64,000 nucleotides of DNA from Ramicandelaber brevisporus (taxonomy: Eukaryota > Kickxellomycota > Ramicandelaberales > Ramicandelaberaceae), in assembly GCA_025201865.1 (NCBI GenBank), contig MU602742.1, positions 1-64,000 on the forward strand, in the 5' to 3' direction. Under the pieces are notes generated by a model that saw nothing but the letters and a program-made list of their open reading frames with translations, made no database searches and was not told the DNA's origin. This document shows, piece by piece, positions 35,775 to 62,934 of this stretch; the stretch's first letter is position 1; each line of letters starts with the position of its first letter. The translations under genes and the position numbers were made by a program.

Positions 35775-36497
35775 ATGCCAAAATCAAAACGAAAAGAACT
35801 GGACGACGGCGATGGCGATCGCGGCTCTGGAGCTGGTGCTAAAGCTGCAGAGCCACCGCGTGCTCGTCGCTCCGCACGACTGCAGAATTCAGCTGCTGCC
35901 AATACCTCTGCAGCTGCTGCCGCGGCTCCTGATCAAGCATTAGCATCAGCACCACCAGCACCAGCACAGGCACAAGCACCGAAGCGCCGCAAGGTGACCA
36001 AGACGACTGCGTCTGTCACCAAGAAGCCCCTAGAAGAGAAGGTCATCGTGGCTACTACTACAGGCCACAATGACGATGATGTTGTTAAGGATGTTGCTAC
36101 TGCTGCTGCTACTGCTGATGATGATGATACCGAATCCAAGACACAGCCCAATGCATCTCCAGCTGCCACATCGAGTGCATCGGTTCGGATGACAGTTCTG
36201 CATTGCACCAGCTGACGAGTGTTTGGGAACCAGGCACGCTCGCTGCATTCAAGCGTCCAAGAAGCACTAGCGCCAGTTCCCGTTACACTGTCACTTAACC
36301 CATCCTCTGAGCCCAAGCCCGCCCGTGGCTCATTCGAGGTTTACCTGGCCATCAGCTCCAGCAAGGATGATAGCTCAGTATCATCAGCACTGGGCTCTTT
36401 GGTCTGGAGTGGCCACAAGCTTGGACCTCCTCGCAGGCTCAAGTTCCCTGATCACAGCGTTGTGATTGAAGCTGGTCAGGCGGCCTTGCAAAAATAA
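35775..36497 (+). CDS. SELENOH: Selenoprotein H with in-frame UGA (Sec147)
   Basis: 240 residues if TGA at 36213-36215 is read as selenocysteine. The N-terminal 135 residues are basic/Ala-rich with nuclear-localisation-type patches (PKSKRK, RARRSARL, APKRRKVTK) and an acidic run. The Rdx/thioredoxin-like domain begins MTVLHCTSU (Cys144, Sec147), then RVFGNQARSL, ARGSFEVYLA, LVWSGHKLGPPRRLKFPD and ends at TAA 36495-36497. Human SelenoH has the same HCTSURVYG, RRGSFEV and GPPRKLKFPE elements, with UGA at the identical place. SelenoH is a nuclear redox protein. A SECIS-like element lies 27 nt past the stop, and eEFSec is encoded in the same window. Standard gene finders would stop at residue 146 or split the gene. 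An out-of-frame ATG at 35737 precedes the start if the transcript begins that far upstream. Confidence 0.93.
36213..36215 (+). other. Selenocysteine-encoding TGA codon
   Basis: TGA in frame between TCA/AGC-type codons of CTS and CGA GTG TTT (RVF). It sits at the Sec position of the CxxU motif and homology continues on both sides. Confidence 0.9.
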
Positions 36498-36523
36498 CTG
36501 ACGGTTGTTGGATCATTTACTGT

Positions 36524-36594
36524 GTGATGGCGGTAATGATGAAAGCTAATGGCATTATAATAAACAAATGCCACATTATTATCCCTAGCCTGAT
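36524..36594 (+). promoter_or_regulatory. SECIS element candidate (form 2)
   Basis: By-eye fold: GTGA (36524-36527) faces TGAT (36591-36594) as the non-Watson-Crick quartet. GGC (36529-36531) pairs with GCC (36588-36590). GGTAATGATG (36532-36541) pairs with CATTATTATC (36574-36583), ten pairs including two G-U, leaving CCTA bulged on the 3' side. The 5' apical loop AAAGCTAAT starts with the required unpaired As. A ministem GGCATT/AATGCC (36551-36556 with 36567-36572) closes a 10-nt AU-rich loop. This order, quartet, about 13-bp helix, AA, ministem, is the form-2 eukaryotic SECIS. The helix is at the long end and the bulge is a blemish. Such elements recruit SBP2 and eEFSec to recode UGA. Confidence 0.75.
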
Positions 36595-36755
36595 AAAAAA
36601 AATGAGTAAGTTTTAATAACAACTTTAAAAGCACATATGGCTGGATAGAATGGTAACTTAGTATTTTGTGAAAAGATGAGGAGATAAAAAGATAAAAAGA
36701 TAAAAAAGATGAATATGTAAATAGGTGAATAGCTTGGGGGTGGTGGTTGCAACGA

Positions 36756-61047: not shown

Positions 61048-62934
61048 ATGCACAAACAGCAACAGCACCAGCAACAGCACCAGCAGATGACGGTGAACGT
61101 TGGTCTGCTGGGCCACGTTGATTCAGGCAAGACGCATCTAGCGCGTGCATTGAGTGCCACAGCATCTACTGCTGCGTTCGATAAGAATCCACAGAGCAAA
61201 CAGCGCGGAATCACACTTGATCTCGGCTTCTCCGCCTTCACTCTGCCACCACCACCACCATCACCGTCTGCTCTCACTGAACAAGCATCAGTTGGTGAGA
61301 TTCAAATTGCATTGGTCGATTGTCCAGGTCACGCGTCACTTATCCGAACGGTGGTGGGCGGAATCCAAATCATTGATGTTATAATTCTCGTCATAGATGC
61401 AACCAAAGGTATCCAGGTTCAAACAGCGGAATGCATCGTCCTGGCAGAAATCATGAAGCGACCAGTCATTATAGCATTGAACAAGATTGACCTTATTCCA
61501 GCAGAGCAGCGCACGTCTCAAGTTGCAAAGTTGACAAAGGGATTGGGCAAAGCATTGGCATCAACAAGGCTAAGGGACTCACAAATTGTGCCGATTGCAG
61601 CAAATGTTGGTGCGGTGGATATTGATTCAAACGGAGGGATGTGTGAGCGGTATGGAATTGAGGAGTTTATGAGCAAACTGCAGGAAACAATCTGGAAGGC
61701 TATGCGAGAAATGCCTCGATACTCAACCATATTCAACACCAGCAGCAGTAGTAGCAGCAGCAGTAGCAGCAACAGCAATAACAACGGTGACGAGGAATCA
61801 CCATCAAGTACGGCAATCAAAGACGACGCTGAACAAACTCAATTCCTCTTCAGCATCGACCATTGTTTTGCAATTCGTGGTCAAGGCACCATTCTCACTG
61901 GCACAGTCTTGAGCGGTTCAACACGTGTTGGCAGTGCAGTTGAACTCGCCAATGACCCAATTCCATCTGGCATCACTGGATCGGCAGCACTCAGCTCGCA
62001 TGCCAATGCTCGAAAAATCAAGTCAATCCAGCGATTTAAACGGTCAGTTACCTCGATATCCGCTGGCGATCGTGCTGGAATCTGTGTTACTGGTTTGGAT
62101 CCGTCAACTGTGGAGCGTGGTTTGGCATGCTGGCCGCCTGGTATCGCGCCGAGAGTGTACGGCGTGATTGCAACTGCGCAAAAGGTGAGATTCTTTAAAC
62201 ACGATGTGGAATCTGGATCAAAAGTGCACATCTCTATCGGACATGAGACGGTTGTAGCCACAGTGACATTCATTCAGCCTCATCAATCGACTCTGTCTGC
62301 AGATTGTGACACCGTCGACAGTCTTGACTACACATCTGATTACACAATGCTCGAGAAGCTACCGTCTTCACCACCAGCCACACAACAACCTGACAGCCAG
62401 CAAGCAAATGATGCATGGTGCTTTGTGCTTCTCGAGTTTGAGCATCCAGTTGTCTGTCCACCGCAGCCCACTTATGTTGCATCTCGACTCGACTTTGACT
62501 ATGGTCCCACGTCAACACACAAATCATCCTCTTCATCAGCATGTAGATTTGCATTTAGCGGCCGCGTTCTCGATCGCTTCACAGCCGCTGACTACCGAAC
62601 ATCCATTCTTCCTTCTAAGCTTCGAATCATCCGCGTCTTTGAACGCCAGTGCACTGTTAACAGAATTGTGGATCCACGACAAGTTATTTGCAATAAGTTG
62701 TTCACAAATATTAACCCGATGATTGGAATGAAAGTGGAGCTGAGCCTTCCTGATGGGAATGTAATCTACGGCCATATTTCAGCGGCGTTTGGAAAGAATG
62801 GAATGTTTAGAGTTGATTTAAGTAGTGGCAATATTCCTCAAGAGTTTACGACGGCATCAGCCAAAAATTCGTTTAGAATTACTATTCGGTGGAAACGGCT
62901 AACTTTTGATAAGACCAAGTCTATGATTCAGTAA
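61048..62934 (+). CDS. EEFSEC: Selenocysteine-specific elongation factor eEFSec
   Basis: 628 residues from the first ATG (61048), or 615 from 61087, which matches the family start; numbering below is from 61087. GTPase motifs: GHVDSGKT (9-16), RGITLDLGF (40-48), DCPGH (78-82), NKID (132-135). TASTAAFDKNPQS and the 'RGITLDLGFSAF' block are specific to eEFSec rather than eIF2-gamma or EF-Tu. Domains 2-3 include DHCFAIRGQGTILTGTVLSG and ISIGHETVVATV; the eukaryotic domain 4 runs from about 480 (FAFSGRVLDRFTAADY, VDPRQVICNKLF, GHISAAFGKNGMFRVDL, ending WKRLTFDKTKSMIQ). It binds Sec-tRNA and SBP2 at SECIS-bearing mRNAs. A Ser/Asn run (near 223-240) is a fungal-style insert. Apparently complete and undamaged. 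Confidence 0.96.
   Translation: MHKQQQHQQQHQQMTVNVGLLGHVDSGKTHLARALSATASTAAFDKNPQSKQRGITLDLGFSAFTLPPPPPSPSALTEQASVGEIQIALVDCPGHASLIRTVVGGIQIIDVIILVIDATKGIQVQTAECIVLAEIMKRPVIIALNKIDLIPAEQRTSQVAKLTKGLGKALASTRLRDSQIVPIAANVGAVDIDSNGGMCERYGIEEFMSKLQETIWKAMREMPRYSTIFNTSSSSSSSSSSNSNNNGDEESPSSTAIKDDAEQTQFLFSIDHCFAIRGQGTILTGTVLSGSTRVGSAVELANDPIPSGITGSAALSSHANARKIKSIQRFKRSVTSISAGDRAGICVTGLDPSTVERGLACWPPGIAPRVYGVIATAQKVRFFKHDVESGSKVHISIGHETVVATVTFIQPHQSTLSADCDTVDSLDYTSDYTMLEKLPSSPPATQQPDSQQANDAWCFVLLEFEHPVVCPPQPTYVASRLDFDYGPTSTHKSSSSSACRFAFSGRVLDRFTAADYRTSILPSKLRIIRVFERQCTVNRIVDPRQVICNKLFTNINPMIGMKVELSLPDGNVIYGHISAAFGKNGMFRVDLSSGNIPQEFTTASAKNSFRITIRWKRLTFDKTKSMIQ

Follow-up and report, generated by a model that had tools for sequence, protein, structure and literature searches.

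A predicted selenoprotein H gene with an in-frame UGA at the selenocysteine position, and a family of SECIS-like elements, in the fungus Ramicandelaber brevisporus

The gene at 35775–36497 of the window, by which we mean the whole 64-kb stretch of R. brevisporus DNA that was analysed, is with high confidence a selenoprotein H (SelenoH) gene whose UGA at 36213 would be decoded as selenocysteine (Sec) by means of a type II SECIS element and the genome's own machinery. That a fungus carries SelenoH with a UGA-encoded Sec had been proposed in a sequence-only reading of the window. The proposal is supported by the reading frame, its homology, a SECIS-like element that is shared with other genes and displays paired changes, and the genes of the Sec machinery, all of them features of the DNA itself. 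The positions of the features are given in Table 1.

Table 1. Selenium-related features of R. brevisporus; positions are those of the window unless another locus is named
Feature	Position	Strand	Remarks
SelenoH CDS	35775..36497	+	single frame, 240 aa, predicted Sec at residue 147
In-frame TGA, putative Sec codon	36213..36215	+	within CTSU; translation and coordinates checked
SECIS including helix I	36513..36605	+	SelenoH 3' UTR, minimum-energy fold; helix I is 36513-36517 with 36601-36605
SECIS core	36524..36594	+	GUGA 36524-36527, helix II, start of AAAGCUA bulge 36542-36548, helix III hairpin, 3' GA 36592-36593
eEFSec	61048..62934	+	628 aa, one frame, ~24.5 kb 3' of SelenoH
GPx	L022:1483-2031	+	TGA at residue 38 in NVASKUGLT; SECIS core 2142-2208
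SBP2-like	L071:706-2628, contig C121	-	640 aa, L7Ae domain split, ankyrin repeats

Translation of the SelenoH frame gives 240 residues closed by a TAA (36495–36497), with the TGA at residue 147 as the sole interruption, as the sequence-only reading had described. Residues 1 to about 137 form a basic, low-complexity N-terminal extension, and the domain occupies residues 138 to 240, approximately. The TGA falls at the end of a CxxU redox motif, HCTSU (residues 143–147), in the context VLHCTS-U-RVFGNQ, and is followed further on by ARGSFEVYL and GPPRRLKFPD. The 93 codons 3' of it, which had been claimed to complete the domain, indeed do so: RVFGNQ, ARGSFEV and GPPRRLKFPD are all present. This tail has no in-frame stop, against two and six in the other two frames, and its codon usage, referred to seven neighbouring frames of the window, scores +0.055 per codon in frame against -0.280 and -0.290 in the others. 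Judged from the stop frequency of the window, an open run of 93 codons has a probability of ~0.029 by chance, which taken alone is weak evidence.

Residues 136–240 were compared with human SELENOH by BLASTP, in a single comparison in which the human sequence had C in place of U; 39 of 94 positions are identical (41%, E=2e-20), and both RGSFEV and GPPRxLKFP are aligned. The general profiles gave lower scores. The NCBIfam SelT/SelW/SelH model (TIGR02174) matched the domain at 3.3e-6 and 27.3 bits, under its curated cut-off of 34.2, and Pfam Rdx matched the whole protein at 6.2e-4 and 20.4 bits, under its cut-off of 22.6. Thus the family comparison that had been suggested for the joined protein succeeds with SELENOH and falls short with the two profiles. 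We read the near-misses as divergence, both models being general ones for SelW, SelT and SelH; the name SelenoH is given on account of the direct SELENOH comparison. Run against the whole genome, Pfam Rdx returned no candidates, the search missing the SelenoH gene itself.

Searched against deposited proteins, full-length SelenoH drew 2520 candidates, not one of which reached E≤0.001, and the domain drew four, not one of which reached E≤0.01; no fungal SelenoH was returned. Since no deposited protein matches it, the gene is probably missed by the public annotation of R. brevisporus. The domain likewise matched none of the PDB sequences at E≤1.

Lack of a SECIS had been named as a finding that would count against selenoprotein status; the opposite was seen, a type II SECIS-like element lying 3' of the SelenoH stop codon. 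Its GUGA starts 26 nt past the stop, while the corresponding distance in the selenophosphate synthetase (SPS) gene is 41 nt, and its helix I (Table 1) has a counterpart of 9 bp in SPS. Folding of 36510–36608 (99 nt) yields the SECIS shape as the minimum-energy structure (z -2.72), 2 of 200 shuffled sequences folding equally well, and the 78-nt core alone has a z of -2.69. In the whole 263-nt UTR the minimum-energy structure retains helix III and loses helix II (z -1.10). A type II SECIS grammar, which omits AAAGCUA and whose limits were chosen after the elements were known, found a single site on the two strands of the window, namely the SelenoH element, and gave seven hits in 60 shuffled windows. 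Among 75 sequences it also picked out SPS, a glutathione peroxidase (GPx) gene and one unrelated chance site (locus L002).

SPS (E=3.7e-69, above cut-off) contains one in-frame TGA, in ELKGUGCKV. The TGA of GPx aligns with the position at which GPX4-type proteins have their catalytic Cys or Sec; the protein matched 41 PDB sequences, the best two being GPX4-derived designs and the next GPX4. With SelenoH, there are therefore at least three genes in this genome with a TGA at a known Sec position. The terminal codon of GPx is also a TGA, situated 110 nt 5' of its SECIS core. The thioredoxin reductase model TIGR01438 gave two hits, both under cut-off, in frames that were read as glutathione-reductase-like and lipoamide-dehydrogenase-like and have no Sec tail.

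The 3'-UTR hairpins of these three genes have, as judged from their sequences and predicted folds, the anatomy of type II eukaryotic SECIS elements. Their common fold comprises [A/G]UGA, a helix II of 13 pairs, a bulge opening with AAAGCUA 14 nt after the UGA, a helix III of 6–7 pairs with a loop of 9–10 nt, and GA. The cores read GUGA...UGAU in SelenoH, GUGA...CGAU in SPS and AUGA...CGAC in GPx. Helix II, the bulge adenines and the upper helix are found in all three, for GPx in a 72-nt context and for SelenoH in folds other than the minimum-energy fold of the whole UTR. Helix II is not perfectly regular: SPS has two mismatched pairs, SPS and GPx each have a single bulged base at one shared position, and SelenoH has extra bases elsewhere. 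The SPS element is the minimum-energy fold in 100 nt (z -2.26; -1.18 for its 72-nt core), and the SECIS-like hairpin is retained in a 284-nt stretch (z -1.34). The GPx element is the minimum-energy fold in its 72-nt context (z -0.63) and is replaced by a different fold in 93 nt (z -0.72).

Comparison by eye of the SelenoH and SPS 3' UTRs revealed TGTGTGA-N14-AAAGCTA in both. A 21-letter pattern made from the two, with up to three mismatches allowed, occurs at two places in the 17.9-Mb genome, which are those two genes, and the reversed-pattern control occurs at none. The GPx 3' UTR, examined after the other two, contains ATGA-N14-AAAGCTA and is able to adopt the same fold. In a three-row alignment, 55 of 57 cells pair (96.5%), a value reached by none of 500 shuffles and comparing with 29–44% for slid structures, and across the three copies both partners vary in 17 of the 19 pairs; this alignment was fitted to the structure by hand, with five letters trimmed from the SelenoH element and N padding. 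In the untrimmed model alignment SelenoH has four bases inserted and a single pair flagged as non-standard. MAFFT failed to bring the elements into register, and its alignments were left out of the pair counts. A covariance model built from SelenoH and SPS only scored the held-out GPx element at 30.3 bits (E=7.8e-6), the runner-up reaching 9.5 bits, in a search of 11,337 bases with filters off; with default filters over 46 sources the same model missed the GPx element, and a chance site there reached 14.8 bits.

Other searches located no further elements. Rfam at curated cut-offs gave no match over the whole window, and its SECIS families gave none to the SelenoH, SPS and GPx 3'-UTR stretches even at E≤10. 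The bare TGA-N14-AAAGCTA motif is uninformative, because its count in the genome is no higher than that of its reversed control (19 places against 20), and a 25-place pattern with one mismatch matched at 25 places, its control at 33. A model of all three elements, scanned over chosen loci (38 sources, four duplicate or overlapping loci being left out, and then 30), placed only the three known elements above 13 bits. A diverged fourth SECIS may exist elsewhere in the genome, beyond the loci scanned with this model.

The genome contains the set of genes that marks a Sec-decoding organism: tRNA-Sec(UCA), SepSecS, a PSTK-like kinase, SPS, eEFSec and an SBP2-like protein, the identification by sequence being weaker for PSTK and SBP2 than for the others. 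The tRNA-Sec gene (89 nt) scores 55.4 bits against the Rfam cut-off of 47, a cut-off of RF01852 that was also passed in 5 of 14 control genomes. We read its anticodon as TCA, and its minimum-energy fold resembles a cloverleaf; ARAGORN reported no tRNA at this locus. The other two hits of the tRNA-Sec model in the genome were identified by ARAGORN as tRNA-Arg. SepSecS is recognized at E=6.8e-108 and by TIGR03531 at 494.4 bits, above cut-off. The PSTK-like protein (338 aa; E=6.1e-13) reaches 51.1 bits, far under the TIGR03575 cut-off of 382, and it also matches Pfam AAA_33 and KTI12, the latter a related family; in our reading some of its residues resemble those of PSTK.

The eEFSec protein found best among 210 PDB sequences the eEFSec entry 7zjw_E (E=1.1e-109), and its Pfam euk_SelB_III and eEFSec_4th domains (III and IV) are above cut-off, the frame being under the cut-off of the bacterial selB model. 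The presence of SelenoH and eEFSec on one contig is probably a coincidence. For the SBP2-like protein the best PDB sequence was SECISBP2 (E=1.8e-13; best stretch 4e-10). Its L7Ae domain is interrupted by a Thr/Ala-rich insert, and ankyrin repeats (PF12796, 1.8e-11) make up the C-terminal part; no literature combining SBP2, ankyrin repeat and SECIS was found.

The TGA might be a nonsense mutation or an assembly error in a Cys-form SelenoH, and hence the mark of a decayed or disabled gene. It is a single base away from the Cys codons TGT and TGC, and the assembly is a draft (510 contigs, 17.9 Mb) in which, on the assembly alone, a sequencing error is possible. Such a history is nevertheless very improbable when set against a TGA at the known Sec position, 93 open codons after it that keep the domain residues, and an organism possessing tRNA-Sec, SepSecS and eEFSec; nor would a sequencing error account for a SECIS-like element of the SPS/GPx type 3' of the gene. 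We give equally little credence to removal of the TGA by splicing, or to its being a true stop that gives a 146-aa protein. Six GT and eleven AG dinucleotides do lie within ~150 nt either side of the TGA, but any listed GT-AG pair, the one class of intron covered by the test, would delete at least residues 141–148 and with them all of HCTSU, a motif that is aligned to SELENOH without gaps. The intron that the sequence-only reading had considered as a way of excising the TGA is thus implausible. Moreover, seven selenium-related genes (SelenoH, SPS, GPx, SepSecS, eEFSec, PSTK-like and SBP2-like) are single open frames.

Animals and many protists typically possess SelenoH and the Sec machinery, and a contig contaminating the assembly from such a source would explain their presence here. 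We regard this as the most improbable of the explanations. One of the neighbouring genes on the contig encodes DHBP synthase (266.9 bits), an enzyme of the riboflavin pathway that is not known from animals, and the SepSecS is 100% identical to a protein deposited under R. brevisporus. In a SepSecS tree of 20 rows, the five fungal rows lie on one side in 100% of the bootstrap trees; one slime-mould row that was uncounted may sit among the fungi, two long branches meet, and 9 of the 17 inner branches are open. This grouping is compatible with vertical inheritance and is no proof of it. The SepSecS proteins of Paraphysoderma, Hyaloraphidium, Polychytrium and Entophlyctis were among the best 120 of 2467 matches.

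Assignment of the gene as a Sec-containing SelenoH of R. brevisporus itself allows its working to be sketched. Once the gene is transcribed, translation would start at the AUG at 35775 and the ribosome would insert selenocysteine on reaching the UGA, because the type II SECIS is expected to recruit the SBP2-like protein, eEFSec and Sec-tRNA. The element is predicted to form a kink-turn (GUGA/UGAU, with sheared G.A pairs), which may bind the SBP2-like protein and so bring in eEFSec with the Sec-tRNA(UCA). Sec would be made on its tRNA by the PSTK-like kinase and SepSecS, with selenophosphate from SPS, itself a predicted selenoprotein. The product is likely to be a CxxU redox protein of the thioredoxin fold, extended at its N-terminus by a basic segment. 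Vertebrate SelenoH is a nuclear or nucleolar DNA-binding redox protein, and by analogy, and in view of the basic N-terminus, the fungal protein is probably also nuclear.

R. brevisporus belongs to the Ramicandelaberales in the Kickxellomycotina, a subphylum of which the Harpellales are another order (NCBI taxonomy). In a 2019 study of fungal selenoproteins, consensus SECIS elements were reportedly missing from most of them, and the two species outside the Harpellales are said to be Gonapodya and Bifiguratus. The SelenoH of Zancudomyces culisetae and other Harpellales is credited to Mariotti et al. 2019 in a portion of PMC12611240, where SelenoH and the Sec machinery are described as common to Harpellales fungi and expression in Zancudomyces is reported by RNA-seq. 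Seven of the nine reported Sec fungi are Harpellales according to a passage of PMC10386755; as only two of the nine lie outside that order, at least two of the four fungi with SepSecS named above are further candidates for selenium use. In a 2021 survey (PMC8559351), none of 134 fungal proteins annotated 'selenocysteine', which came from 112 species, contained a U, and fungi were held to lack Sec. That null result would be expected if the annotated proteins were truncated at the TGA.

No report of Sec in Ramicandelaber was found in the literature searched, whose scope lay outside preprints and most subscription journals. Judged from its genes, selenium use appears to extend to a fungal order that is unnamed in the reports found, and an order of Kickxellomycotina outside the Harpellales joins the fungi with selenoprotein genes. 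The novelty that had been claimed for a fungal SelenoH holds for the lineage and is otherwise smaller than stated, SelenoH with Sec machinery being known in Harpellales from the portion of PMC12611240 mentioned. What is new is the lineage, the predicted Sec-GPx in R. brevisporus and the uniform SECIS family. One small fungal genome thus holds at least three selenoprotein genes and matching machinery, and since three SECIS-like elements with clear paired changes occur in one fungus, UGA recoding in fungi becomes directly testable.

In comparison with vertebrate SELENOH, the R. brevisporus protein has the same CTS-Sec-RV motif, RGSFEV and GPPRkLKFP (within the 41% identity to the human sequence), but adds the low-complexity N-terminal extension of ~137 residues and, within the domain, a serine-rich insertion. 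To the Harpellales it is likened by description, in what PMC12611240 says of SelenoH as a selenoprotein accompanied by Sec machinery in Kickxellomycotina, rather than by sequence or SECIS, and it differs in belonging to the Ramicandelaberales.

In vertebrate SECIS elements the spacing from UGA to the adenines is slightly shorter than the 14 nt of R. brevisporus. AAAGCUA is identical in all three of its elements, and unlike known SECIS they match no Rfam SECIS family. We suggest tentatively, as a possibility somewhat short of even, that they form a lineage-specific family (14-nt spacing, AAAGCUA, mostly GUGA) that is missed by general models and co-evolved with the unusual SBP2, which is fused to ankyrin repeats and has its L7Ae domain split by an insert. 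If so, the reported shortage of consensus SECIS in fungi may mean diverged but genuine SECIS families and not a different mechanism. The sequence features set out for eukaryotic type II SECIS in sections of PMC8704476 and PMC11227280 are present in the R. brevisporus elements, two of the three differing from the known ones in their use of a GUGA core, which is called rare in a section of PMC11227280.
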